Shown here piece by piece: positions 4,443 through 18,454 of a stretch of 64,000 nucleotides of DNA. The DNA lies in the NCBI RefSeq assembly GCF_000305775.1, contig NC_018866.1:1364001-1428000 (forward strand). Reading direction: 5' to 3'. A program made the translations under genes and the position numbers. The notes beneath the pieces were generated by a model that was not told the origin of the DNA, ran no database searches, and saw only the letters and a list, made by a program, of their open reading frames with translations. The number at the start of each line of letters is the position of its first letter. The stretch's first letter is position 1. The stretch comes from Dehalobacter sp. DCA. GTDB taxonomy: Bacteria > Bacillota > Desulfitobacteriia > Desulfitobacteriales > Syntrophobotulaceae.

Positions 4443-5375
4443 CTAACTAAAAATGACTTCATGATATCTGATGATAAAGATCAAAGGGAGCACCGCTTCT
4501 ATGGCATTCCCGCCATGCACAAAACAATGCTCAAAGCCACAGTCACGTTTTAAGTTATTGAAAATTGAGTTCTCGATATCCCAGCGTGCCCTGATTATCT
4601 TGAACAAGGTCTTCTGTGTCATATCCATACAAGTTGTTACGATCATAATCTGTGAGCGAAGCTTGTTCTTATGTTTTATTGCAAATTTCACAAACCGCAA
4701 CGGTTGCTCCACGTTGTCCATAGTGAAGGTTGACTGGTAAACATGAACTTTCTCAAATCCTTGTTCATCTTTCCAAACCTCAACAGCTTCCGCCTTATTA
4801 GCAGTTTTTTTCGCCAACCGCAAACTATTATTATTATTGTTTTTTGCTCGGACAATTGCATCAATGCCCAAATCCTTGCGGTGGTTAATCCAGATGGAAT
4901 TACAGGCGAGAGCATCATAAACTACAACATCAATCAAGTTCTTATGACTCTTCACGACGCTTGAAATCTGCCTTTTTGCTACGTTCAGCTCACCTTCATC
5001 TTTTGAAACAGCATCTTGTCCGGGCTTGTACATCTCGAAGTCAATAACCATTTAGGACCCATACCTACCGTAGGGCATGACAGCACCACTATGGAAATAA
5101 TGAATCTTTTCTGCTTTGGTGCTTTTCAAGCATTCTGAACAGTTTTTCTTATTGCTCCCAAAGAATTTTGTTCCATCGATCGCGGCCACCATATATCCGT
5201 CAATGGTACCGTTTTCAAAAGCCTTATTCTCGACTGCTTTTTTTACAGTGTCCTGATTGATTTGTTTTAGCCCATCAATATTCATGACTTTAAGCGTATC
5301 TCTGATTGCATCAACCTGGAAAGCCGTATTTATACATCAAATCATCTTGTGCCTCGCAATATCCTGCGTGGTCAT
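4443..5375 (-). pseudogene. IS4-like DDE transposase, inactivated by two in-frame stops
   Basis: Starting at ATG 5375 (preceded by AGGAG), one continuous frame reads MTTQDIARHKMI, then TGA, then CINTAFQVDAIRDTLKVMN and onward to residue ~100. A TAA follows at 5052-5054. The frame then continues with MVIDFEMYKPGQDAVSKDEGE and ends near 4443 with RARWDIENSIFNNLKRDCGFEH. The VIDFE segment and the ARWDIENSIFNNLK (Y/R-x-W-x-I-E-x2-F-x2-L-K) motif are typical of IS4-superfamily DDE transposases. No frameshift is needed to join the parts; only the two stop codons break it. It lies between chromosomal genes and the left edge of the conjugative element. Terminal repeats were not identified. Confidence 0.75.
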
Positions 5376-5520
5376 AACATACTCCTGTTTTACATATATA
5401 AAATTCACTGGTGTGTATATGATATTGTTCATGTTCTTTTTCTGGCGTTATATATTCTTAGAGTGATAAGTTCCCCTTCACGGTTCATCATGAACCCTTC
5501 CATAGTCCAACAATTAGACA

Positions 5521-5551
5521 GACCTTCCCCTCGGCGGGGAAGGTCATTTTT
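5521..5551 (+). terminator. Strong hairpin terminator at left edge of the element
   Basis: A perfect 10-bp stem GACCTTCCCC/GGGGAAGGTC with a 5-nt loop is followed by ATTTTTAG on the plus strand. It lies between the transposase remnant and the last minus-strand gene of the element. It may insulate the element from readthrough from the left, or act in both directions. Confidence 0.7.
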
Positions 5552-5557
5552 AGCCCA

Positions 5558-5827
5558 TCAGCCTAAATCCCTCTGCATTAAATGATACAGATTGCTGCTC
5601 TTGCCGCCGTTCTCACGCCACCTTTTTTCCTTACGCAGACGGCCGCTTTTTTCAAGGTCAGCTATAGCACGTTTAACGGTGCTTCGGGACAGCTTTAACT
5701 CCTTGGCGATGGTACCAATCGCCGGGTAGCATTTACCATCCTTATCTGATCGGTCATGAAGGTACATATAGACAGCCCTGGCACGATGCGGAAGCTCCGA
5801 GGAATAAAGAGAAAAAAAGTAACCCAC
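5558..5827 (-). CDS. Small winged-helix/HTH_36-type DNA-binding protein
   Basis: 89 residues. A helix-turn-helix spans residues ~38-66 (IGTIAKELKLSRSTVKRAIADLEKSG), followed by a basic wing (RLRKEKRWRENGGKSSNLYHL), as in HTH_36 proteins found in plasmids, phages and ICEs (replication or transcription regulators). The GTG start follows AGGAGGTG by 6 nt. It is the last gene of the minus-strand conjugation cluster, just downstream of virD4. Target unknown. Confidence 0.75.
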   Translation of the reverse strand: MGYFFSLYSSELPHRARAVYMYLHDRSDKDGKCYPAIGTIAKELKLSRSTVKRAIADLEKSGRLRKEKRWRENGGKSSNLYHLMQRDLG

Positions 5828-5838
5828 AGCTTCACCTC

Positions 5839-7656
5839 CTATTCAATCCGAACAGGTGCTTTTGTCCTGGCAGGCGCTTCCGGCTCCTGAATCGGTGAGT
5901 GAAGTATTCCGCCCGATGCGGATGGACCAGCTTCAGCTTCCTCCGTCACATCCACGCTGGCAGAGTGCCGGCGGATGATTTCTTCCTCTACCCTGTGTCT
6001 GTCGGCATACTCCACCCTCCGGGCCGATTTCTCGGAAATCTCATAAGGCTTGCCGAAGGTTATACCCCATTCCGTAAATAGCTTTAGCTTGGTACGCATC
6101 GGGTAGGTGCCCGTCTTTGTGATAACAAAATGACCCTTAGGCATAGACTTTAGCTCATCCGGTGTCATCAGCGGACGCTCGATCATTTGCAGGCTCTGCG
6201 ACGGGTCGTTTTTACCCCGGCTGACGGAGCCGCTCATGACGGTCTTGCTTCCCATGGCTTTTGATAAAATCTGCGCTGATTCGCTATTGGGAGCAAAGCC
6301 GCCGAACACGGTATCCTGGCAGTTGTCAATGATGATGGCAGAGCCTTCGCGGCCATAGTTTTTCTCCAGCTGAGCAAAGCTCTGGATGATGGCTACAATG
6401 GACACACGACGGGAACGGGAAGCAGAGAACATCATCTCCGCCGACTCGATTTTGGGGATGGTTCCGATCTCGTCGAGAAACATCATCACACGGTTGGGGA
6501 GCTTTCCTCCATGCTCGTCAGCCACTGACAGGATTTCACGGTAGAGCTGCTGGACGATCAGGCTGATAATGAAATACTTTGTGTTGTCTTCCTCCGGCAT
6601 TACCAGGAATATTGCACTTTTCTCTGTACAAAACTTCTCCGCATCGATTGCTGTGTCAAAGCACAGGATTTGCTCCAGCTCAGAATCCAGAAACGAATTG
6701 AGCCTTGACAGCGCCGTAGAAAGAACACTCTGCATTGCTTGTTCCGCAGTATTGAGTGCCGCCCCAGCGAACCACTTGGTCTTGTGCTCATCCGGCAGAT
6801 GGACAAGGAGCAGCTGAAACAAAGTCCTGCCCTTGACGCCGCTGGGTGCAAGCAGATCCTGAATGAGCTTGAATACGGATACTATGTGCCTCTGCTTCGG
6901 TTCACAGTATTCCGCTATAAGCAGAATCACGGATGTCAGCAGTCCTTCCGCCGCGTCATAGAAGAAGGCATTTTGTCCAGCCATTGCCGTATCGAAACCT
7001 CCGGAGTTAATGATAGTCTTTGCGGTAATCTTTGCATACTTCTCCGCTCTGGCTTTAAATGCAAGATTCTGAGGATTATTGAGATATGCATCCATATACC
7101 GGTTGACCAGATGGAGAAGATTGTTTCCGTCCGAGCGGGTAGGGTTTCTCAGGTCAATGACTGCAATATCGTATCCATATTTTTCTTTTGCAATCCCGGC
7201 ATAATTGCGGTAGAGATCGCCCTTGGTGTCGGTGGTCACAAAACTCATTCCGCAGGCGCAGGCATATTCTAGATTAGGATAAAGAAAGTTAGCGGTCTTG
7301 CCGACGCCTGCCGCGCCGATCATCAGACAGTGGATATCGTCATCGTCTACCATCGCATATCCGTGCTGAGCTTTATTATCAAACAGCGACGCTTTCCTCC
7401 AGCCGACTATCAGACCCTGCTCTTTCGGAAGGCTTTCACCCTTTCTCCACTTCTCCGGCTCGTAGGGAATTTCTGTATAAGTCTTTTTAATCTCCTGCTT
7501 CGTTGCCCAGCGCGCCGTACCGTGCTGGCCGTCGCCGACGGTTTTGGACTTGATCCCGTTTAAGGTGTAGTAATGCGCTATAAGCGATAACAAACCGATA
7601 ACCCCGAACATAGACAGTCCGGCGGCTGATAGGATTATGATTTGGGATGTCTGCAA
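5839..7656 (-). CDS. virD4: VirD4/TraG-type coupling ATPase (T4CP)
   Basis: 605 residues. Two N-terminal membrane segments come first, then Walker A GAAGVGKTANFLYPN (~residue 115) and Walker B MMFLDEIGTIPKI, followed by the SRSRRVSIVAIIQSFAQLEKNYG stretch typical of the TraG/VirD4 motor. Role: links the relaxase-bound DNA strand to the T4SS channel and also selects protein substrates. The start is TTG, 7 nt after AAAGGAGGGATC, chosen because no ATG gives the membrane segment. The C-terminal ~60 residues are Pro/Ala/Glu-rich and variable. It follows the toprim gene by 13 nt. Confidence 0.93.
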   Translation of the reverse strand: MQTSQIIILSAAGLSMFGVIGLLSLIAHYYTLNGIKSKTVGDGQHGTARWATKQEIKKTYTEIPYEPEKWRKGESLPKEQGLIVGWRKASLFDNKAQHGYAMVDDDDIHCLMIGAAGVGKTANFLYPNLEYACACGMSFVTTDTKGDLYRNYAGIAKEKYGYDIAVIDLRNPTRSDGNNLLHLVNRYMDAYLNNPQNLAFKARAEKYAKITAKTIINSGGFDTAMAGQNAFFYDAAEGLLTSVILLIAEYCEPKQRHIVSVFKLIQDLLAPSGVKGRTLFQLLLVHLPDEHKTKWFAGAALNTAEQAMQSVLSTALSRLNSFLDSELEQILCFDTAIDAEKFCTEKSAIFLVMPEEDNTKYFIISLIVQQLYREILSVADEHGGKLPNRVMMFLDEIGTIPKIESAEMMFSASRSRRVSIVAIIQSFAQLEKNYGREGSAIIIDNCQDTVFGGFAPNSESAQILSKAMGSKTVMSGSVSRGKNDPSQSLQMIERPLMTPDELKSMPKGHFVITKTGTYPMRTKLKLFTEWGITFGKPYEISEKSARRVEYADRHRVEEEIIRRHSASVDVTEEAEAGPSASGGILHSPIQEPEAPARTKAPVRIE

Positions 7657-7669
7657 CTCGATCCCTCCT

Positions 7670-9103
7670 TTACATGGTCATAGAAAAATTTACTGCTTGC
7701 TCCTGCACCGGCAACATCGATGGCAGCTCCTGCTCAACAAACATTATGGTTTTAATGCAATCCAGCGCAAGGAGCTGATAGGAGGACAGGAGCTTTTCCT
7801 TATCCTCCAGTGTACGGATGCCGATCATCTGAAGCTGACGGCTGATATTGGAAACGTCCTGTCGCAGCTGCTCCGCCTTGGTGCGAAGCCAGCCACGATC
7901 CTCATGGGGACGGTAGCTGTCCTGCAGCTTTTGAATGAGCTGCACCATTGTCACTGGCTGTTCCATCTGGCGCATTTGCCTTTGCATGGATGTCAGTGAG
8001 CTGGCTGCCATGCACTGCAGACATTCCCGAACAGCTTCCGAATTCAGAGCTGCTGTTTTGCCGGAGGCTAGTAGCGGCTCCACTGCCTCGGCGCACTCTG
8101 CAAGGAAGAAGTCAATGTCTTTATGCGCTGAAAGAGCATTGCACAAATCATGTAGCTCCCTAACAACCTTTGGCAGAAGCTCCAGCTTCGGATGCTCTCT
8201 TGCCGGGATGGGACTTACACCGTTTTTGGCTTTCAGATCCTCATTCCAGTCCTTGTACTGCGATTGCATTACTGAAATATCCCTATAGCCCTTTTCGTGC
8301 AGGATATCTTTCAGGCGGCTGACAGCCTCAATGCCTGCTTCATCATGGTCCAGGCACAGCACGACGCTTTTCAGATGAGGATTCAGCTCCAGCTGGCAGA
8401 GCATAGCGTGTTCCGATACGCCATCAAGCGTGACATAGCTGTGGTGCTTCCAGCCATCTTTATTCAGGGTGATAAACGACAGCATATCCACAGGCGCCTC
8501 AAAAACGTATAGTGTATCGCTTTCCCCCAACCGGTGAAAGCTGTATTTCGGATCACTGCCTTCCACGTTGCCCTTGTATGGCTCTCCCCGAGTATAGGTT
8601 CCGCGTTTGTGAGCATGACGGGGAATGCCGTTTTCATCCAGGCCCACAAATACTGCATTGTGATATTTCTTATCCTCATAAATCAGCTTTTCGTGGGCGA
8701 AGTGCGTCAGCACTTCCCTGTCTATGAAGCGCTGTTTGATAAGATAGGCAAACACTCGGCGCATATCCATATTGGCTTCTGGCAGCGCGAAGAATTTGCG
8801 TGTAAGCGGCACACTCTTGGAGGTCTGGTTCCATTCCACACCGGACTCGCCGCCGAGGAGCAGCGTAACGGCTTCGGGAAAGCTCATGTCATAGAACTGC
8901 TGGACAAAGTCGATGGCATGGCCGCCTTCTTTCCTGGAATGACGGAACCACTGACTGCCGCGCACGGTCACGCTGTCATGACGTTTCCAGCGCCACTCGC
9001 GGCCGGAACGAACGAGCTGTTCACCCTGCCGTTGGAGGAAGTCCACTAAATCCACTGAATTGGCCCGTTGTTTTTGTTCGTCTGTAAAGTGAATATATTC
9101 CAT
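7670..9103 (-). CDS. DUF3991/toprim-domain (primase-like) protein
   Basis: 477 residues. The N-terminal half has the DUF3991-like part (VDLVDFLQRQGEQLVRSGREWRWKR... GGHAIDFVQQFYDMSF, related to the zinc-binding primase region but without an obvious CHC2 cysteine set). A TOPRIM fold follows (YVFEAPVDMLSFI with the catalytic-Glu position; VVLCLDHDEAGIEA with the D-x-D position). The C-terminal half is helical. Such proteins accompany relaxases in clostridial ICEs and may prime complementary-strand synthesis in the recipient. The last residues N-F-S-M-T-M match the shared C-terminal tail seen in other element proteins. A hairpin terminator lies 45 nt before the start. Confidence 0.85.
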   Translation of the reverse strand: MEYIHFTDEQKQRANSVDLVDFLQRQGEQLVRSGREWRWKRHDSVTVRGSQWFRHSRKEGGHAIDFVQQFYDMSFPEAVTLLLGGESGVEWNQTSKSVPLTRKFFALPEANMDMRRVFAYLIKQRFIDREVLTHFAHEKLIYEDKKYHNAVFVGLDENGIPRHAHKRGTYTRGEPYKGNVEGSDPKYSFHRLGESDTLYVFEAPVDMLSFITLNKDGWKHHSYVTLDGVSEHAMLCQLELNPHLKSVVLCLDHDEAGIEAVSRLKDILHEKGYRDISVMQSQYKDWNEDLKAKNGVSPIPAREHPKLELLPKVVRELHDLCNALSAHKDIDFFLAECAEAVEPLLASGKTAALNSEAVRECLQCMAASSLTSMQRQMRQMEQPVTMVQLIQKLQDSYRPHEDRGWLRTKAEQLRQDVSNISRQLQMIGIRTLEDKEKLLSSYQLLALDCIKTIMFVEQELPSMLPVQEQAVNFSMTM

Positions 9104-9121
9104 ACTCCACTACCCCCTTAG

Positions 9122-9253
9122 TCAGCGTTTTCTCTTGCCGCACCGACGAAAAAAAGCCACCCGCCGATGAGCGGATGGTTTGGGTGATGTCGGTTTGATT
9201 TTTACGGGAATCGGTTCTTTTTTTCGGAGCAGTTTTGGATATTGCATCCGCAT
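9122..9253 (-). CDS. Very small basic ORF (43 aa), doubtful
   Basis: ATG at 9251-9253 is preceded by AAAGGAGGG with ideal spacing. It encodes a Lys/Arg/Pro-rich 43-residue peptide (MRMQYPKLLRKKEPIPVKIK...) of unknown family. Position matches the small TnpW-like genes often found between relaxase and toprim genes in clostridial elements, but I cannot match the sequence. An intrinsic terminator lies inside the frame. The strong ribosome-binding site with an internal terminator could also mean a leader peptide. Confidence 0.35.
   Translation of the reverse strand: MRMQYPKLLRKKEPIPVKIKPTSPKPSAHRRVAFFRRCGKRKR
9148..9178 (-). terminator. Intrinsic terminator between relaxase and toprim genes
   Basis: On the minus strand, CCATCCGC-TCATCG-GCGGGTGG (8 bp, one G-U) is followed by C and seven T. 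It ends 45 nt before the toprim start codon. Confidence 0.75.
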
Positions 9254-9270
9254 GTAAGCCCTCCTTTGTA

Positions 9271-10944
9271 TTAATAGTTTGTATGCTTGAGTTCATGATC
9301 GTCCTGGGCGTGACCTTGGGCGATCTTTTTCTCACGGATTTTTCGACGCAGTTTGCTGTCCGTCTGCATGGCGGGACCGCCGGAAAGTCTTTGCTGTTCA
9401 TCCCTGAAAATCCGGCTTAAGTGATGCAGGAGCCTTGTCGCTGCAAGTAACAGAAAGGGATTACTGAAAGTGTCCATATTGTCAAGAAAATACCGCGCGT
9501 AAACGTTACCCTGTTCAGCAGACAAGGTGAACCAGCGTACTGCGGCTTCACGGTCATAAGGGACATCCTCGCCCATAAGGAACAGCTTGCCGAGAGCATA
9601 TTGTGCATGCTGGTTGCCCTGCTCCGCAGAAGCGGTCAGCCATTCAACAGCCGTTTTCACATCCTTGGGGTGACCGTCTCCCAGCAGATAGCGTCTTCCG
9701 AGGCGATACTGAGCGAATGAATTATTGGGAACCGACGCTTTCGTTAACAGTTCCGCAGAGTTTTCGGTATTCATCTCCTGCCCGTCATCGGGTAACTGCT
9801 CCGCTTCCTCATCTCCCTCTAAAGTAAAATAGTGACTGCTGATGCTCATGGCTTCGGAGATCACCATATTTTTTATGCTCTTAAATTCTTTCTGCCGCGA
9901 GAGCGGCAGTGGATCAGGAGTCTTGTCAGTATATGTTCGCAGGACTTCGTTCCGAAGCCCATGCCATTTTGCATAGGCTTCCGACACCTGCTCATTCTTC
10001 GCCAGCTCATCTACGATCTGATCCACGATTGCTTTAAGTGGCGCTTTTAGATAACCGTAGTGCTTCTTTCCTGAGGTGTGCTTCAACCGTTCTGCCAGAT
10101 GCATGAGCAGTGCCTCAATAGTTTCGCTCTCACACACGCTCCCGCTCATCCTGCCTATAATCTCTCTTAAGGCTTCACGGCTCTTGCCGGCGAGCTCGTT
10201 TCTTTGAGTGGTTTGCTCAGCATATATCTGAATCAAATCCTGCTGAAAGATTTCCCTTGCCAGACTGCCCCGCATTTTATCAATTGCAGTCTTAGTGACA
10301 TACCCTTCGCGGGGATTCACCGAGTGCACGAGCATGTGGCAGTGAGGATGATGGCCTTCGTTATGAAATGCAGCATACCAGCGCAGATTTTCCGGAGCTA
10401 TTTTCATCTGCTCGGCAAGCATATTCCGCTGCTTGCGCAGGAGTGCCATCCATGCGGCGGCATTATCATATCCAAGCCGGGCGGCATCCTCCCGCCGCAG
10501 AGAAATGATAGGAGTCCAGACATTTCCGGTATGCTGGGCAACTTCTTCCATCACCTTTGACAGCACCAGCGGCGTATCCCCATCGGAAAACAGTCCATGG
10601 GTTCCTAGCTTCTCAGCACGGGGACGAGTAGCAATGTAATTGACATAGATCTCCTGATGGGATAGTTGATCCAGATTTTGATCCAGTGCTGAGCTGATGA
10701 ATTCCGAAGCATTTTTCGTAGTTGGATGTTTGAGATAGTCCTCGTACTCGAACACATCCGCGGTATCAGGAAACTGAACGAGAATATCTTTGATGAGCAT
10801 TTTCTGTTTCTGCGTGGCGGAGCTGTCGCGGGAGAAGGTAGATATTTTCTCCACGCCGTCGCGCGTCGCCACATACTCCACAAGATTCTCAAGATGAACC
10901 GCTGAGTTTTTTAAGTATCGACATTTGAAGATGATTTTCGGCAT
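9271..10944 (-). CDS. Conjugative relaxase, MobP-type, with C-terminal Sel1 repeats
   Basis: 557 residues. The N-terminal region has the MobP/MobL opening (PKIIFKCRYLKNS...NLVEYVATRDGVEKI). The histidine cluster HNEGHHPHCHMLVHSVNPREG around residues 190-210 supplies the HUH-type metal site. Two clear Sel1-like repeats lie near residues 415-490 (FAQYRLGRRYLLGDGHPKD and HAQYALGKLFLMGEDVPYD), probably protein-interaction modules. It should nick oriT and pilot the strand through VirD4. The gene starts 2 nt after the stop of the accessory protein. The Sel1 tail is known in some clostridial relaxases. Confidence 0.85.
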   Translation of the reverse strand: MPKIIFKCRYLKNSAVHLENLVEYVATRDGVEKISTFSRDSSATQKQKMLIKDILVQFPDTADVFEYEDYLKHPTTKNASEFISSALDQNLDQLSHQEIYVNYIATRPRAEKLGTHGLFSDGDTPLVLSKVMEEVAQHTGNVWTPIISLRREDAARLGYDNAAAWMALLRKQRNMLAEQMKIAPENLRWYAAFHNEGHHPHCHMLVHSVNPREGYVTKTAIDKMRGSLAREIFQQDLIQIYAEQTTQRNELAGKSREALREIIGRMSGSVCESETIEALLMHLAERLKHTSGKKHYGYLKAPLKAIVDQIVDELAKNEQVSEAYAKWHGLRNEVLRTYTDKTPDPLPLSRQKEFKSIKNMVISEAMSISSHYFTLEGDEEAEQLPDDGQEMNTENSAELLTKASVPNNSFAQYRLGRRYLLGDGHPKDVKTAVEWLTASAEQGNQHAQYALGKLFLMGEDVPYDREAAVRWFTLSAEQGNVYARYFLDNMDTFSNPFLLLAATRLLHHLSRIFRDEQQRLSGGPAMQTDSKLRRKIREKKIAQGHAQDDHELKHTNY

Positions 10945-10946
10945 GG

Positions 10947-11354
10947 TTATTCACCCTTTTGGAATTTCGTAACATCCTCGAAGGTCACTGAGCCGATGGA
11001 TTTCTTCACGTCGGCAACGCACTTTCCGCGCAGCCGATGCAGTGTGTTTTCATCCACCTCCGCTGTGGACGCTAGGATGTTCATCATCATGGACATCTCC
11101 ACGGCCAATTTAAACATCACGCGGGCAATGCGGTTTTCCGACGTCCCGATGATGCCTGACATGGCCGAGGTGATAGCAGTTGGCAAAAACTTCATGCTAT
11201 CCTCTGCCGAGATATAGCCGCAATAAAAGCGAATAGCCTTTTCAATAAACTCACTCTGACTTTTGCAGTTGTCTTTTTCATAGAGTTCCTGCACCCTTTG
11301 CTGTGTTTTAGGGTACATCCATAACGGAAATCTTTTTTTATTTTCCTCTGCCAT
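10947..11354 (-). CDS. Relaxosome accessory protein (MobC/RHH-like)
   Basis: 135 residues. The N-terminal MAEENKKRFPLWMYPKTQQRVQELYEKDNCKSQSEFIEKAIRFYCGYI has the beta-strand plus two-helix pattern of ribbon-helix-helix DNA-binding proteins. The rest is helical and Met-rich. Placed directly before the relaxase, it probably recognises oriT. An in-frame ATG 15 nt upstream exists, but it forms part of the ATGGAGGT that serves as ribosome-binding site for the ATG at 11354. A strong terminator hairpin lies 29 nt upstream. Confidence 0.75.
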   Translation of the reverse strand: MAEENKKRFPLWMYPKTQQRVQELYEKDNCKSQSEFIEKAIRFYCGYISAEDSMKFLPTAITSAMSGIIGTSENRIARVMFKLAVEMSMMMNILASTAEVDENTLHRLRGKCVADVKKSIGSVTFEDVTKFQKGE

Positions 11355-11382
11355 AAGTTTTACCTCCATTTTTTTGAATTAT

Positions 11383-11426
11383 AAAAAGCACCCTCTGGAA
11401 TTGCAGCTTAAATTCCAGAGAGTGCT
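11383..11426 (-). terminator. Strong intrinsic terminator before mobC-like gene
   Basis: A 16-bp stem (11387-11402 with 11411-11426; one mismatch) with an 8-nt loop is followed on the minus strand by TTTTTATAATTC. It sits 29 nt before the start of the accessory protein gene and also closes the cargo module. Confidence 0.85.
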
Positions 11427-11519
11427 TATAATTCACTTTTAATATTACATTTATAAGATTATTAAGAGTATGAGTTAGCCTCAAAGATTATCATTTCATA
11501 TCTATATATTTCATTCAAA

Positions 11520-11732
11520 TTATTTGATATAGCAAGTATATGGATAATATGCAATTTGCAATTGCATTTTTACCGAGATTAGCTGGTCCGCGCCCTCTAG
11601 GTACCAAACTCCTAAATACCCGGCCGCCTCCCGCTGGAGCACTAGACGTGCGGAGGCGGTCATCCTGTTAGTGATAGTGAATTGCGGATTAAAAGAATCT
11701 CCTTTTTCAGCATTATCCGAGAGCCACATCAA
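11520..11732 (-). pseudogene. Possible truncated Fic-family gene
   Basis: A 70-codon frame overlaps the end of the ATPase gene. Its residues ~12-24 (SFNPQFTITNRM) resemble the conserved P-P-F-T-I-T-N-R-I stretch at the start of many Fic-domain AMPylases. Similarity ends where the DNA enters a GC-rich imperfect palindrome (about 11624-11660, CCGCCTCC...GGAGGCGG). No Fic catalytic motif follows. I read it as the stub of a third gene of the cargo module, cut off by a rearrangement. The remainder of 11427-11712 holds the palindrome and AT-rich sequence only. Confidence 0.35.
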
Positions 11733-14334
11733 GCTGTTCCAATGCTGTCACAATTTCATTGACCGTTTGAGAGTCAAATTCTGCCCGATCTGCTTCTTCA
11801 TGAGTTCCTTTATTTAAGTATCTCCATTCCCTTGATTCACCGTTAATACCGAGTAGAGTTTCAATGGGAGTCAAAACAGCAGTTTTGTTTTGATCTAAAA
11901 AATCCGCTTTGGCAATTTTTGATTTTAGCTGCTCAGTTAGATTTCGGAGTTCGATAGGTGAGGTTACAGAACGCATTTTAATACTTAGGTTTCCATCGCC
12001 GTGTCTATTTACATAACGCCACACCTTTTCCTTTGTTAAAGATTCAAGGGCCTTCCTAGATTTGTCTAATGAATCTCGGATCTCGTTCTTATCATAGTGG
12101 GTTCGAGCGGCGATAACATAATTTCGTGGGGAGCAATTATGATTGACAGAGATGTTGAAATCGCTAATCTTTGGTAAAAAGGAGAGCGTTTTGGACTGAT
12201 GTGCTTTTTCAGCTGATAACAGGTTTTGAATGTCTTTAAAAAACTCCTCACCATGACATGCCAAAATAATTTGTTTATCCTTAAAATATTCATCCTCAAA
12301 CATTGTCCTTCGTATTGATTCGCGGTGTTCATCATCAATTGCATTTACAGGATCATCAAAGATGAGGAAAGGACAGTCTTCCTTAATATTTTTAGCCGTC
12401 AGTATTGCCAGACCAATACATCGGATATGGCCTTCGCTGAGAATATGCAAAGCATCGAAAAAGGTATTTGGATAATTATTAAACGAAATTTGCAGTCGCT
12501 GATTTTGTTGAAGTGGTAGCCTGATTGCTGCCAATCGCTCATGTTGGTGATCATGTCGATTAAAGGCGTTATATAGCTCTACAACCATTTCGCCTAAATC
12601 TGCAACCAGTTGAGCAGGAAGGCTATTTTTATAGTCATTCAGTTTTTGAACAAAGACTGTGTAGGCATTTGCTATTTTCTGGTTTTGGGCAACAATGCTC
12701 TTTTCAGTTTCAACATCCGTAATGAGCTGAGTATTTTCGGTTTCAAATTTTTCGATTGCTTCTTTAGCCTTCATAATTGTGTTGTTTGCGGTCTCCCTGC
12801 GAGTTTGCAATTTGACGATTTTTTCAGCAAATACACGAAGGCGTTTGAGCTCTTTTTGATTTTCAGTGCGCTTCTCTGCAACACAAGCAATCTCTTTGTC
12901 TACGTCTTCAAGATATTTAACCTGTGCTTCTAAATGTTGCCATGAGGTAAATCCATCACTTAATTGCTGATGAAGAGAATTCCACCAATCAATAGTAGGA
13001 ACCTTCCCATCTGTTGTTTGAAACGCTGAAAGCTGGTTGTTTTTAGAAAAGCGTGAACAACAGATGTTAATGATCTGTGAAAGCTTGGTAAGTGAGCTGC
13101 TAATGCCTCCATTTAGTTTCTTAGTCGCCTCTTGCAGTTCTCCCAAATGATGAAGATTTTTCAATTCCGTGCAAGCGTGAATAAATGGATTTACAGTAAC
13201 TTGCGAAAGCGGCGTATGACAGGCAGGACATTGCTCGGGGCTGTTATCCTGTACCTGAATCACAGCTTCATAAAGCTGTTTGAATGAAATCTGTTGATTG
13301 GCATTTGCCAAATCCTGTTTTTTGGTGTTTAACTCTCGAATGTCAGCGTCGATGGATTGCTGCAAAGTTTGCAGTTCAGAAAGCACTAGATTACCTTTTG
13401 TGCCAATTGGTTTTTGCAGATCCTCTTCCAGTTGCGCAATTAATCCATTTTTATCTTCATTACCATTCAACTCGATGATCATTTGAGAGAAGGTGCAGTC
13501 AGCGCGAAACTCTTTGGCCAACAGATTTTCATCTTCACCCAGTTTTTGCAGTTCTTCGGGTACAGTAGTTGCTAATTGCTGTTGAAAACCAGCAAGCACT
13601 TGCTTTTTTAATTTTAATTCTTTCTCTTTAGCGCCTTCGAGATCGATGTATCTATCCATCGAATCTGTAAAGTTACGGACAAACTCCGAGAAAGCATCCA
13701 GGCCGAAAAGCGTGGATATTAGTTCAGTTTGTTTAGCTGGTGCCTGCGCGGCAATACGGGAGAAATTGTCAATACGGTTCTTATCTACAAAACAAAAACG
13801 ATACAAGGCTTCATTTGCAGAAATTGGAATGTCATTTTCTTGATTGTCTAAACCAATCAGAATTGGTGGAGTAAAACTATTGGTGTGAGCGTTTTTCAAA
13901 TAGTCTTGCTGATTACGGAATCGTTTACTTTCCGCTTCGGCAACATTACCCAACAGACTATATTCCAAGGCTTCGCAGAAACTGGATTTCCCCGTGCCAT
14001 TGGGGCCGTATATCAATACCAACTGACTGGCGAGATCAAAATCCTCTTGTTTTGCAAAACCACGAAACGGACCAACGGAAAAGCTTTTTATTTGAGTAAT
14101 TCGACAGGTTTGTTCCGTCACTTGTTCCAGTGTGAGCTGAATATCTGAACAGATTGAATCCCAATTCGTTTGAGCTAGTTCTACCATCTTTTTAATACGT
14201 TGGCCCTGTGCGGTTGAAAGGGGAATCAATGTATCCAAATACTTCAATACAAGGTTAGCGATTTTTCGCACGTCACCTGGAATGCCTTCTATGCTGAGTG
14301 TTTGCATAAAACGGAGATATTCAGCCTGAATCAT
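11713..14334 (-). CDS. Rad50/SMC-like ATPase with zinc-hook motif (putative defence)
   Basis: 873 residues. Helical N-terminal ~90 residues precede an AAA/ABC ATPase: Walker A IYGPNGTGKSSFCEALEY (110-117), a long coiled-coil arm (~230-620) with a CPAC zinc-hook-like turn at residues ~369-372, ABC signature LSEGHIRCIGLAIL, and Walker B CPFLIFDDPVNAIDD. The C-terminal ~150 residues are a helical domain (SRKALESLTKEKVWRYV). This architecture occurs in RecF/RecN-like antiphage ATPases; no nuclease site is seen here. Start at 14334 follows GGAGGG by 7 nt. It forms a module with the upstream helicase-nuclease. RloC-type anticodon nuclease is an alternative because of the hook, but no RloC active-site triad was recognised. 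Confidence 0.75.
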   Translation of the reverse strand: MIQAEYLRFMQTLSIEGIPGDVRKIANLVLKYLDTLIPLSTAQGQRIKKMVELAQTNWDSICSDIQLTLEQVTEQTCRITQIKSFSVGPFRGFAKQEDFDLASQLVLIYGPNGTGKSSFCEALEYSLLGNVAEAESKRFRNQQDYLKNAHTNSFTPPILIGLDNQENDIPISANEALYRFCFVDKNRIDNFSRIAAQAPAKQTELISTLFGLDAFSEFVRNFTDSMDRYIDLEGAKEKELKLKKQVLAGFQQQLATTVPEELQKLGEDENLLAKEFRADCTFSQMIIELNGNEDKNGLIAQLEEDLQKPIGTKGNLVLSELQTLQQSIDADIRELNTKKQDLANANQQISFKQLYEAVIQVQDNSPEQCPACHTPLSQVTVNPFIHACTELKNLHHLGELQEATKKLNGGISSSLTKLSQIINICCSRFSKNNQLSAFQTTDGKVPTIDWWNSLHQQLSDGFTSWQHLEAQVKYLEDVDKEIACVAEKRTENQKELKRLRVFAEKIVKLQTRRETANNTIMKAKEAIEKFETENTQLITDVETEKSIVAQNQKIANAYTVFVQKLNDYKNSLPAQLVADLGEMVVELYNAFNRHDHQHERLAAIRLPLQQNQRLQISFNNYPNTFFDALHILSEGHIRCIGLAILTAKNIKEDCPFLIFDDPVNAIDDEHRESIRRTMFEDEYFKDKQIILACHGEEFFKDIQNLLSAEKAHQSKTLSFLPKISDFNISVNHNCSPRNYVIAARTHYDKNEIRDSLDKSRKALESLTKEKVWRYVNRHGDGNLSIKMRSVTSPIELRNLTEQLKSKIAKADFLDQNKTAVLTPIETLLGINGESREWRYLNKGTHEEADRAEFDSQTVNEIVTALEQLDVALG

Positions 14335-14806
14335 ACGTAATACCCTCCACCGAGTGAAACCGAGCCAGCGCAAGCTTCAAATAAATTAACATACTCTTAC
14401 TCCGGCATGGACGCCGGATTACTTGGGGCACGGGAATTTTAGATCACTCGCATTTTAATTAACATATTTTGCTTTCGCGCGGTATCGCCTATCAGGCGCA
14501 GGAGAGTGATGTCCGATTATCTCCTCTTCACGGTATCCTTCGTAAATCATCCATAATGCAATGTTATTAACGACGTATGTCGTGAATACTTACTGTACCA
14601 GAAAACCAACTTCGCATTATTAGCCTTCGGCGCAGTTGGGTTCTTCTCTTGTTATAAACAAACTGCGAAGCTCGAAAAACTAGAATTTGTCGCGTTGTTT
14701 ATTTTGTCCGGTTCAGACATCATTCCGGTTTACCAGTATTCTCATCCACATGTTCGTGGAATACGGTAAAGCTTTCGCTGAGATCATGGATACAGTAGAT
14801 CTCTGT
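14335..14806 (-). other. Intergenic region inside the cargo module
   Basis: 472 nt without a convincing gene. It holds a short perfect hairpin TCCGGC-ATGGAC-GCCGGA (14401-14418) and several weaker inverted repeats. The gap is unusually long for a two-gene operon and may contain the remains of a lost gene or a separate promoter for the ATPase. Confidence 0.5.
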
Positions 14807-17800
14807 CTATTCGCTCGTTATCACTATCAGCGGCGTCTTGCCGCCCGAATCCTTTATATACTTCTCTGTACTGGCGATAAGCTCAAGCTGATCATTAGAC
14901 ACTAAGGATTTCGAAACTCCTGGCTGCGCTATAATTATTGTGAACTTTGGCCTAAGTAATCGCGATTTATCAGCAATGTCCATGAGTTTCGACTCATTCC
15001 CAACTATAATACCGCTATAGCCGTGTTTGCGTCGGCGATTTTTTTCACGGTATATAAGCTTTTCTATCATCGCTTCCTGATTCAATCTACGCTTAATTGA
15101 TTTTTGCGCCTGTCCGCAGACTTCATATAAATCCTTAATTCTTGCGCCGGGATGACCAGTAGAGTATTTGCAATGTACAAGATTCACAACGAGATTACTA
15201 CTTTCAATTTTTAACGCTACAATATCGGCAACTTCACCTGCTCCATCGTCATCGATAATTATATCCCAGTTATCCAACGTTTTTATATGTTCAATTACTC
15301 TGGCTTGAATACTTTTGGGATTTCGTTCTCTACCTTGAGATTCAACACTCAAGTCAATGCCGCTCCAATCGATAGCATTAAGTAGTTCCTTTCGATAAGC
15401 TGGGGCGTTTTCTTTTGGTATTATCAAGACCATTTCCGGTTCAATTATAGCTTCTTTATTTAGCAAAACCCGAAGGCCGTACTCATTCAAGAAATCAACA
15501 AACGGCACTGTCGATCTTGGCCGTACATAAAAGGCTGTATCTCCATTACCGGCAGTAGAAAAGAGCATCTTGCCACGGTTCATCGTAAGTTGATATTTTG
15601 CTTCGGCACCATCGGGCGTTGATACGGTAAATGGGATTGGCCCACTGTCATTATTATCTGTTACCGTGAGATCGATGTCATTAAACGATGCTGTGGAATC
15701 TCCTATTTGAATCTGAATGCTCTCACCAACATCGAGCCACGATTCTGTAGGCCACTCAAGACCAAGCACAACAAATTTTTCAGGCCTAGTCTGTAATGGT
15801 TTCGGGACAATAAAACCATCCATGACTGCGGCCGGATCGATGCTTGGATCATTAAGCTTTGCACCTATCGATTCTGCCCACGTCATCCATTGCTTAATGT
15901 TAATTGCTGCTTTGTGACTCCATATGCGTCCTTTTAGCGATGCTCCCACACTCAACCTTTCTCCGCTTTCGCTATCCAGACCATGGGCAAATATATTTGT
16001 TTGTGACTTGTTTCGACGAGCTTCTTCATCTAGGGCCTCAATTACATCTGCACCCACTCGTAATTCGAATTTGCTATCCCTGTTTCTGGTATCAAGGAGA
16101 CCGACATTGGTTGCGATTCGTCGATTCAAAGATGCCATTGTTTTATAAACGCTTCCGCCTTTGTATAACTCTACGGATTCCCCACATATAGCCTCTGCTA
16201 ACTCCTTGAAAACGCCTTCATTATTGGATGCGTTGATGTAAAGCATGTGATGCGTTGAGTCCCAGTATGCGACAAATAGATTATAACTGGTCTGCGCGAT
16301 ACTCTTAACATCTCCCCAACTGACCGCTTCCACGTCTTTAGTAACGAACCATGCTACATGTTCAGCGTGATTAATTGCAGGCTGGTTGATGAGTCTATCC
16401 TTATATAAGTTTTCTATTCGTTCTGGACACCAAGAAGTTGTCTGTGTTTTATAAGCAACGGTGCTCATTTTAGGCGATAAGTTAACAATCGAGATGTCAT
16501 CTGGTAAGTTAGAAAAAGCTTGTTCAAACTCACTCATCTCTTGTTGTTCTTCAATAGCATCAGCTGATATATTGCGAATAACCTTATTCCAGTCTGAGTC
16601 TTCTGCATACAACTCACGAAGCCTAACATCTACATTACGATGACCACGACCGACTACTGCGGTTGCGTCGCCTAACCGCATGCCGCCCACGCGCGCAAAC
16701 CGACCTATAAACTGTAGTGTTACACCAAGGCTCCTATGCGGATCGTGAATTGCGGCAATTTTTAACGCCGGCAAATCAAACCCTTCGCCTAACATATCGA
16801 CACATACCACGATTTTGCTCTCCAGGTTTAGTAACTGACTCAGCCTTTGTCTGCTCGTTTTAGGCTTGAGACCACTGTATAGAACTATCGGTTTAAGATC
16901 TGGCGCCAACTCTTCATATAATGGTAAAAGTTCATCCGCTCGCTTTTTTGTTTTAACGCGCGCCATCAGTACGTGATCATAATTATTTGATAGATCTTCT
17001 CTTAGTTTCCCAATTGCAGTTATTGCTATTGCACGATCTATATCATTAAAATCGACTACTGAGATATAGTTTATTTTGGAAAACACTCCAAGCTCTTGTG
17101 CATCTTTGAGTGGAAATGAATATATTATTTTCCCGCCCAAACGTTGACCGTCTTCACGAAATGGTGTTGCGGTAAACTGGACAACTGGCTTACCAATGAA
17201 ACTATCTCTCATCTCTTTCCAAGTAGCTGCCGCAATATGGTGCGCCTCATCGACAAAAAGATGAGTAAATTGTTCCAGAAAAGCGGCACGTATTGTAGAC
17301 TCGTTTTCATTCAAAGCTGATACCGTTGCAATGACTACATTACATGCTTTTGCAAATGCCTTTGCACCGTCTTTTGTCTTAAAACCATGTTCCACCTTTC
17401 CCACAACCGGTTTCATAGCCGACAAACCAATGACTCCAAATTCTTGTAAAACTCCATAAGACTCAAACTTTTTGGCAATTTGAGTGCGTAGGGCATCAGA
17501 TGGAACAATTACTAATAATCTTGGTATACGGTGTGCAGCGAATATTGACACCATCGTTTCGGTTTTTCCGGTCCCTGTCGGCATAACAATTGTTACAGGT
17601 TCTTTAACTGAAAGTGTCCAGTTGGCCGATACTGCATGCAACGCACCAATTTGTGGCAATCTAAGCCCTTTGTCTGTTGCATTTTCTTGTTTATATGAAA
17701 ATTGATCTACTAGCGAATTTAGTACATCAGTTGCAGATATCAGCTCGGGTTGATTGAGCCACTCGCAATTATTTATCTGAAAAGCTGGATCAGTCAAATA

Positions 17801-18016
17801 GTTAGCCCTAATAAAAGGCTTTTGAGGAAACTTGCTTTCATTACGATTAAGTAAACGATAGCGTCTTTTACTGTTAAATCTAACATAGTTGCTTTCCCCA
17901 GTGCTTTCAAACGCAACAATGCCACTAGGTTCAACAAGTTGCGTAGCACTATTACCATCGACTATAAACGCATTCGCATAAAGTGAAGGTACTCTATTTT
18001 CTGCTGAACTAGACAT
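14807..18016 (-). CDS. SF2 DEAH-box helicase fused to a PD-(D/E)XK-like nuclease (putative defence)
   Basis: 1069 residues. The helicase core has Walker A VMPTGTGKT (144-152), the DEAH box FVDEAHH (256-259), motif III QFTATPFRED, and motif VI QFIGRFARVGG (~440), as in type III/type I restriction-like helicases. Near the C terminus, GEVADIVALKIESSNLVV...HCKYS (~920-952) has the D...x-x-K spacing of a PD-(D/E)XK-type nuclease. The middle ~500 residues are not recognised. AAAGGAGGG lies 7 nt before the ATG. Together with the Rad50-like ATPase downstream it is a plausible antiphage module carried as cargo between the candidate oriT and the mob genes. I cannot assign a named system. Confidence 0.72.
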   Translation of the reverse strand: MSSSAENRVPSLYANAFIVDGNSATQLVEPSGIVAFESTGESNYVRFNSKRRYRLLNRNESKFPQKPFIRANYLTDPAFQINNCEWLNQPELISATDVLNSLVDQFSYKQENATDKGLRLPQIGALHAVSANWTLSVKEPVTIVMPTGTGKTETMVSIFAAHRIPRLLVIVPSDALRTQIAKKFESYGVLQEFGVIGLSAMKPVVGKVEHGFKTKDGAKAFAKACNVVIATVSALNENESTIRAAFLEQFTHLFVDEAHHIAAATWKEMRDSFIGKPVVQFTATPFREDGQRLGGKIIYSFPLKDAQELGVFSKINYISVVDFNDIDRAIAITAIGKLREDLSNNYDHVLMARVKTKKRADELLPLYEELAPDLKPIVLYSGLKPKTSRQRLSQLLNLESKIVVCVDMLGEGFDLPALKIAAIHDPHRSLGVTLQFIGRFARVGGMRLGDATAVVGRGHRNVDVRLRELYAEDSDWNKVIRNISADAIEEQQEMSEFEQAFSNLPDDISIVNLSPKMSTVAYKTQTTSWCPERIENLYKDRLINQPAINHAEHVAWFVTKDVEAVSWGDVKSIAQTSYNLFVAYWDSTHHMLYINASNNEGVFKELAEAICGESVELYKGGSVYKTMASLNRRIATNVGLLDTRNRDSKFELRVGADVIEALDEEARRNKSQTNIFAHGLDSESGERLSVGASLKGRIWSHKAAINIKQWMTWAESIGAKLNDPSIDPAAVMDGFIVPKPLQTRPEKFVVLGLEWPTESWLDVGESIQIQIGDSTASFNDIDLTVTDNNDSGPIPFTVSTPDGAEAKYQLTMNRGKMLFSTAGNGDTAFYVRPRSTVPFVDFLNEYGLRVLLNKEAIIEPEMVLIIPKENAPAYRKELLNAIDWSGIDLSVESQGRERNPKSIQARVIEHIKTLDNWDIIIDDDGAGEVADIVALKIESSNLVVNLVHCKYSTGHPGARIKDLYEVCGQAQKSIKRRLNQEAMIEKLIYREKNRRRKHGYSGIIVGNESKLMDIADKSRLLRPKFTIIIAQPGVSKSLVSNDQLELIASTEKYIKDSGGKTPLIVITSE

Positions 18017-18420
18017 ATATTACCCTCCTTTATTGCCATTTCGAAACGTTATATTTCGATAGTTTATTACCACATAATGGGATTGCTATGCTATTAAATG
18101 TTTGCCTCGCAATTACTCTTACATGTTAAAAATGATCTTCCCATTATTGCTATAACCAATAGCATCCCAAATACTTAAAAGGTTCCCATTATAGACACAA
18201 TGCATATGTAATTTTTGCTGTATTAATCATAGTTACAAACATAATTTTGAGTATTACTTTAATTATTCGACACGCATCAATAATTACCTTTAAATGGCAA
18301 CAGCATGTTTAAAATCTTCATCTTTAACTCCCAGACAAATCCCATTGTGTCAGCACTGACCACCTAAAAAGTGTCTATTTTTTGCAACTTTTAGCCTTTT
18401 TCGACTACCTTTAAGGTAAC
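18017..18420 (-). promoter_or_regulatory. AT-rich upstream region of the cargo module
   Basis: About 400 nt of AT-rich DNA without a gene, unlike the GC-richer flanks. It includes a small inverted repeat around the TATCGAAA...TTTCGA motif near 18041-18062. It presumably holds the promoter for the helicase-nuclease gene, but I could not single out one -35/-10 pair with confidence. Confidence 0.35.
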
Positions 18421-18454
18421 CGGATCTTAACTTCCGACCCCGGCGTGAAGCGTT

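Follow-up and report, generated by a model that had tools for sequence, protein, structure and literature searches.

Does the AT-rich stretch beside the mobilization (mob) genes of a conjugative element in Dehalobacter sp. DCA carry a single two-gene defence system, as its paired helicase and ATPase genes suggest at first sight, or unrelated defence genes that travel together? The window, that is, the whole stretch of 64,000 nucleotides (nt) analysed here (contig NC_018866.1, positions 1,364,001 to 1,428,000; coordinates without a locus name are window positions), holds both genes on the minus strand. The insert that contains them is probably defence cargo, in which an RloC-like ABC-HEPN suicide ribonuclease (RNase) would be accompanied by a helicase-nuclease restriction enzyme that is independent of it. 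The initial annotation had proposed a defence module at 11520-18016; both of its open reading frames (ORFs) were confirmed in position, length, and domain matches, and the inserted unit proved to be larger (about 11370-18432).

11370..18432 (about 7.06 kb): inserted AT-rich cargo, flanked on one side by the conserved region downstream of DUF6103 and on the other by the ribbon-helix-helix (RHH)/MobL mob genes, just upstream of the mob operon
11713..14334, minus strand: zinc-hook ABC ATPase with a C-terminal HEPN-like domain, 873 residues from ATG or 886 from an upstream TTG
14807..18016, minus strand: superfamily 2 (SF2) helicase with a C-terminal nuclease-like domain, 1069 residues

The limits of the insert are given by alignment with seven related conjugative elements, found with the mob region as a DNA query. 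Similarity ends at about 11354-11369, where the RHH gene starts, and returns at about 18432-18436. Between the same points, six of the seven elements (L262, L263, L265, L266, L267, and L268) have 116-226 nt; among them, L266 (G000:C1:1285686-1288751) is a second related conjugative element of the same host genome, with a mob region 76-77% identical and without the insert. The seventh, L264 (G013:C98), has another cargo of 5.5 kb in this position, namely a 1374-residue NTPase (4673-8797) with weak matches to nSTAND3 and NACHT, and a GIY-YIG protein (9111-9644), which together are probably another defence cargo. Because six elements hold only this short spacer and one holds other defence-like genes, the site is a hotspot for cargo next to the mob genes, at which defence genes get swapped, and the helicase and ATPase genes are its cargo in the window. 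The composition of the insert is unlike that of the conjugation genes, as had been noted initially: its GC content is 0.40 and its GC content at third codon positions (GC3) 0.35, compared with 0.50-0.52 and 0.54-0.63 in the conjugation genes of the element.

The ATPase matches SMC_N (E 7e-16) and AAA_23 (E 4e-12) in Pfam, and its motifs are conserved across 97 homologues. The zinc hook, which had been called initially, holds up, since both cysteines are present in 100% of these sequences.

13981..14007, minus strand: Walker A motif GPNGTGKSS, residues 110-118, with N112, G113, G115, and K116 invariant
13219..13230, minus strand: zinc hook C369-P-A-C372
12331..12441, minus strand: ABC signature LSEGH and Walker B/D-loop FDDPVNAID, residues 632-668, with S633-H636, F659-D661, N664, and D667 invariant
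11713..12132, minus strand: HEPN-like helical domain, residues about 735-873, with the triad R760, E764 (12043-12057), and H845 (11800-11802)

The heads of the window ATPase and of RloC-type ATPases are clearly related (hhalign probability 99.2%), and the RloC-family profile picks up the window ATPase family with E-values of about 1e-11 to 1e-13. The ABC-HEPN proteins RloC and PrrC (PDC-S06, AAA_13) share with the window ATPase an ABC head with LSEG and DDPVxxxD, a C-terminal helical domain, HEPN-like by prediction, with Arg-X3-Glu and [Ser/Thr]-His, and linkage to restriction-modification (R-M) genes, and RloC further shares the zinc-hook coiled coil. They differ in that the window ATPase stands outside AAA_13 (no Pfam match at E<=1) and is recognised by none of the PrrC models, scores a marginal 16.5 bits with the PADLOC model PDC-S06 against 887 for a true member, has a Glu-His spacing of 80, and gives no significant profile match with its C-terminal domain. 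Because the RloC architecture is shared while the family models missed it, the ATPase was classed as an ABC-HEPN variant and not as RloC. Judged by sequence, it is a widespread, unnamed family of its own, related to RloC/PrrC and outside the RloC/PDC-S06 models. An extra N-terminal domain of about 80 residues lies ahead of the head; the same domain, together with an R-X3-E and His motif, is found in two long PDC-S06 proteins (L238 3515-6148 and L239 6117-8720), which may link RloC to the window family. Neither the ATPase nor the helicase is assigned by any PADLOC or NCBIfam model, the best scores being generic SMC and helicase matches (LmuB 89 bits, PbeA 40 bits), and a brief literature search found no prior description of either family by name. 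The ATPase was not found in phage genomes. Nothing in the insert is categorically new.

The candidate effector part of the ATPase is its C-terminal domain. A survey of HEPN domains placed RloC and PrrC in the HEPN superfamily and linked ABC-HEPN genes to R-M (PMC3710099), and in RloC the motif Arg-X3-Glu-X36-52-His, with Ser often preceding the His, loses activity on mutation of any of its three residues (PMC2610378). In the window family, R760, E764, N841, and H845 are invariant (100% of 97 homologues), and the local motifs RKALE and LNKGTH compare with RKFLE and LNEDSH in an RloC-type protein. The AlphaFold2 model of residues 712-873, built with 78 homologues, is all-helical (pLDDT 85.7, pTM 0.79). 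When this model was compared with the PDB by Foldseek, nine of the 11 best matches were described as HEPN domains or Csm6, with a best probability of 0.96. Csm6 is a HEPN RNase, and the remaining two matches, both chains of a Sulfolobus protein that lacks annotation, we take to be HEPN as well. DUF4145, presumably also HEPN-like, was matched in three of 78 members (best E 0.04), and a fold search of BFVD with the domain gave no match.

Relatives of the ATPase recur beside restriction genes. A total of 274 relatives were detected in GTDB genome contigs, of which 80 were kept, and 11 more from plasmids brought the set to 91 loci. For example, HsdS lies at -12 to -17 nt from the ATPase, with HsdM and HsdR, in L058, L059, and L079; HsdS is also adjacent in L049, L073, and L044, and other type I loci are L045 and L050. 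Type II genes (Pac25I/XcyI, BsuBI/PstI, and MvaI) adjoin the ATPase in L028, L033, L034, and L023, type III Res in L046 (0 nt) and L080, and BrxL at 3-7 nt in L040 and L048. In the last two loci, the BrxL that the ATPase overlaps or adjoins ends in a PLD-like domain (MIT_C), an SbcD-like phosphoesterase follows the ATPase, and the three genes are possibly an accessory set of BREX (bacteriophage exclusion). Among 104 close neighbours of ATPases, 7 ORFs are HsdS, 4 N6_Mtase, 3 ResIII, and 3 Eco57I, a count that is descriptive and carries no test against a null, because the R-M reference genes were themselves chosen near ATPases. A distant ATPase subfamily has fewer R-M neighbours.

The helicase matches ResIII (E 4e-24), DEAD (E 3e-13), and Helicase_C (E 8e-9) in Pfam, and its motifs fall into two regions.

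16685..17665, minus strand: helicase core, residues about 118-444, with motifs PTGTGKTE, DEAH, TATP, GEGFD, and QFIGRFAR
15107..15274, minus strand: nuclease-like motif region, residues about 915-970, with IDDDGxGExADxVxL, HCKYS, and DLYEVCGQAQ, with invariant core residues in A4, A5, and A7

A PD-(D/E)XK-like C-terminus, proposed from the outset, is plausible from these motifs, and Foldseek gave weak matches of this region to FokI, N.BspD6I, PaqCI, and HincII; as proof of a nuclease, such matches fall short. Full-length relatives are spread over several phyla. The helicase follows hsdS in Escherichia coli (L216) and Klebsiella (L219) and relics of hsd genes in L214, L215, and L037, and it stands last in hsdMS loci and likewise in a type III locus (L210/L249). 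Other helicase loci lie near SAVED, Abi_2, AbiEii, TIR, HEPN, or gamma-mobile-trio genes, and a scan of viral contigs with the whole helicase returned mostly unrelated phage helicases. Relatives of both cargo genes thus have recurrent R-M, BREX, CBASS (cyclic-oligonucleotide-based antiphage signalling), and abortive infection (Abi) neighbours, and the ATPase and the helicase are each a promiscuous "restriction-linked" gene.

RloC and PrrC are classic examples of second-line defence against phages that defeat restriction, and a guard of this kind is the likeliest reading of the window ATPase. The Rad50-type ABC head with its zinc-hook coiled coil would sense DNA damage or a restriction complex that fails. 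Held shut by the zinc hook until then, the C-terminal HEPN RNase (R760, E764, and H845) would be freed by ATP hydrolysis and would cut RNA, probably tRNA, bringing translation in infected cells to a halt. Independently of the ATPase, the helicase would act as a single-chain restriction-like enzyme, its SF2 motor translocating on invading DNA and its C-terminal PD-(D/E)XK-like domain cutting it. Going further, the ATPase family may consist of zinc-hook ABC-HEPN suicide RNases that join almost any restriction-type system (I, II, III, or BREX), or stand alone on conjugative elements, as a general guard that fires on restriction failure or DNA breaks, a generalisation that we take seriously without favouring it. 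If true, a separate family with the anatomy of RloC/PrrC, found across several phyla beside type I, II, and III R-M and BREX but recognised by neither Pfam nor PADLOC models, would make RNase guarding of restriction more general than the known examples, and the conserved triad makes the RNase reading of the ATPase directly testable.

Several observations weigh against a suicide RNase and a separate restriction enzyme. The Glu-His spacing of the ATPase exceeds the 36-52 residues of RloC, direct hhalign comparison of the C-terminal domains finds no significant similarity to RloC (P 0.06-0.2), and no Pfam HEPN family matches this C-terminus firmly. Because the E-values of the 11 Foldseek matches are 0.12-1.1, the structural matches are consistent support for a HEPN fold and not proof. 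In the helicase, the invariant motif E-x-A-D-x-V and H-C-K has His where PD-(D/E)XK usually has an acid, and the AlphaFold2 model of residues 470-1069 is of low confidence, being good over the last ~170 residues only. In addition, the host genome contains no HsdS, so that the ATPase lacks a type I R-M partner and would have to work alone. RloC is itself thought to act alone (PMC3710099).

The same ATPase could instead be a structural Rad50/SbcC-like protein of DNA repair or plasmid maintenance, without nuclease activity, whose C-terminal domain binds nucleic acid. This would fit the RefSeq Gene Ontology tag of double-strand break repair, the location of 21 of 28 plasmid matches on conjugative plasmids, and the SbcD-like genes that follow the ATPase in L040, L041, and L048; we nevertheless judge it unlikely, given the invariant polar triad R-E-H with N841, the HEPN-like fold, and the adjacent restriction and BREX operons.

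Also unlikely is the view that the two cargo genes form one two-component defence system, with a helicase-nuclease effector and an SMC/Rad50-like sensor. The genes share strand and GC3 (0.35 in both) and are the sole genes of one insert, and a related helicase adjoins an RloC-type (AAA_13) ATPase in one lineage only, represented by the bacterial chromosome G212 (L210 8026-17723) and the viral contig L249 (19-8567). There, type III R-M genes, DUF2130, an AAA_13/RloC-type ATPase, and the helicase overlap or adjoin one another in an operon-like run; however, the ATPase is of a different family from that of the window, the gene order is opposite, and the pair sits inside the type III R-M operon. 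The initial annotation had looked to co-occurrence elsewhere as the measure of its pair, and this co-occurrence is lacking: no helicase relative lies near the ATPase at any of the 91 ATPase loci, many of them covered with flanks of up to 10 kb either way, and the ATPase profile has no match near the helicase at 20 helicase loci, a set with somewhat fewer independent contexts. In the window, moreover, the genes lie more than 430 nt apart. Because the two families show no mutual co-occurrence and their only echo has another ATPase family and the opposite order, the window pair is best seen as two separate defence modules travelling together. The proposed defence module therefore stands as defence cargo, with its clean hotspot insertion and defence neighbours, and falls as a two-gene system. 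A reading of the insert as neutral or decayed baggage, with neither gene functional, is very improbable. In its favour, the host lacks a type I partner and the insert has no promoter-like sites above chance; against it, both ORFs are intact, full length, and equipped with all catalytic motifs, and a related element has different defence-type cargo at the same site.

Among named systems, Lamassu comes closest by score, having an SMC-like ABC ATPase and the best PADLOC score (LmuB); the window ATPase differs in being stand-alone, with its own C-terminal HEPN-like domain and no LmuA neighbour. Its sole neighbour in the insert, the helicase, has no LmuA match, and relatives of the ATPase lie beside R-M genes. 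The OLD-type ABC ATPase systems Gabija, Septu, and PARIS likewise combine an ABC ATPase with a nuclease and sometimes a helicase partner, but no TOPRIM, HNH, or GajA match was found in the insert, and the GajB, AriA, and PtuA matches are to generic helicase and P-loop regions. For Gabija, the OLD ATPase with TOPRIM (GajA) is unmatched and the UvrD-like helicase GajB scores 14 bits; for Septu, PtuA scores 30 bits over about 60 residues only and the HNH gene (PtuB) is absent. Lamassu, Gabija, and Septu, which had been offered for comparison, thus fail as assignments in the PADLOC scan, where the matches are generic domain matches only. Similarly, the type IV restriction enzyme SauUSI and the Dnd/Pbe-type SF2 helicases have a ResIII-type helicase core in common with the window helicase, with matches limited to that core (20-40 bits) and a C-terminal domain of another kind in the window protein; a Dnd-type assignment was rejected, its matches being generic. 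The BREX-related helicase-restriction endonuclease (Hma/BR type 1) is an SF2 helicase with a C-terminal PD-(D/E)XK domain (PMC12839542), an arrangement resembling that of the window helicase, from which it differs in that the insert has neither a DUF499 ATPase nor an N6-methyltransferase partner and PADLOC gives no sequence match.

Three smaller features complete the insert.

11520..11732, minus strand: putative "Fic stub" ORF, TTG start, 70 residues, most likely not a gene
14335..14806, minus strand: intergenic stretch between the helicase and ATPase genes, 433-472 nt, with no coding or RNA family match
11386..11427, minus strand: strong terminator-like hairpin with a 17-pair stem and a T run, between the cargo and the mob genes

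The first had been read as a broken Fic-like start overlapping the ATPase gene, but searches of Pfam (E up to 10), PADLOC, NCBIfam, and plasmids (tblastn, E up to 5) returned nothing for it, and a Fic motif lies beside the ATPase at none of 92 loci. RloC-like genes have been reported with DOC/Fic toxins (PMC3710099), and genes with Fic motifs occur in related conjugative elements; a lost Fic gene at the insert is unsupported. The intergenic stretch had been suggested to mark a lost component, and it encodes nothing recognisable: as a lost R-M subunit it was rejected after blastx and tblastx against the neighbours gave nothing, and Rfam returned only a sub-threshold chance match. In the neighbouring mob operon, the MobL relaxase (9271-10944) carries Sel1 repeats at its C-terminus (Pfam 1.2e-19), an unusual extension.

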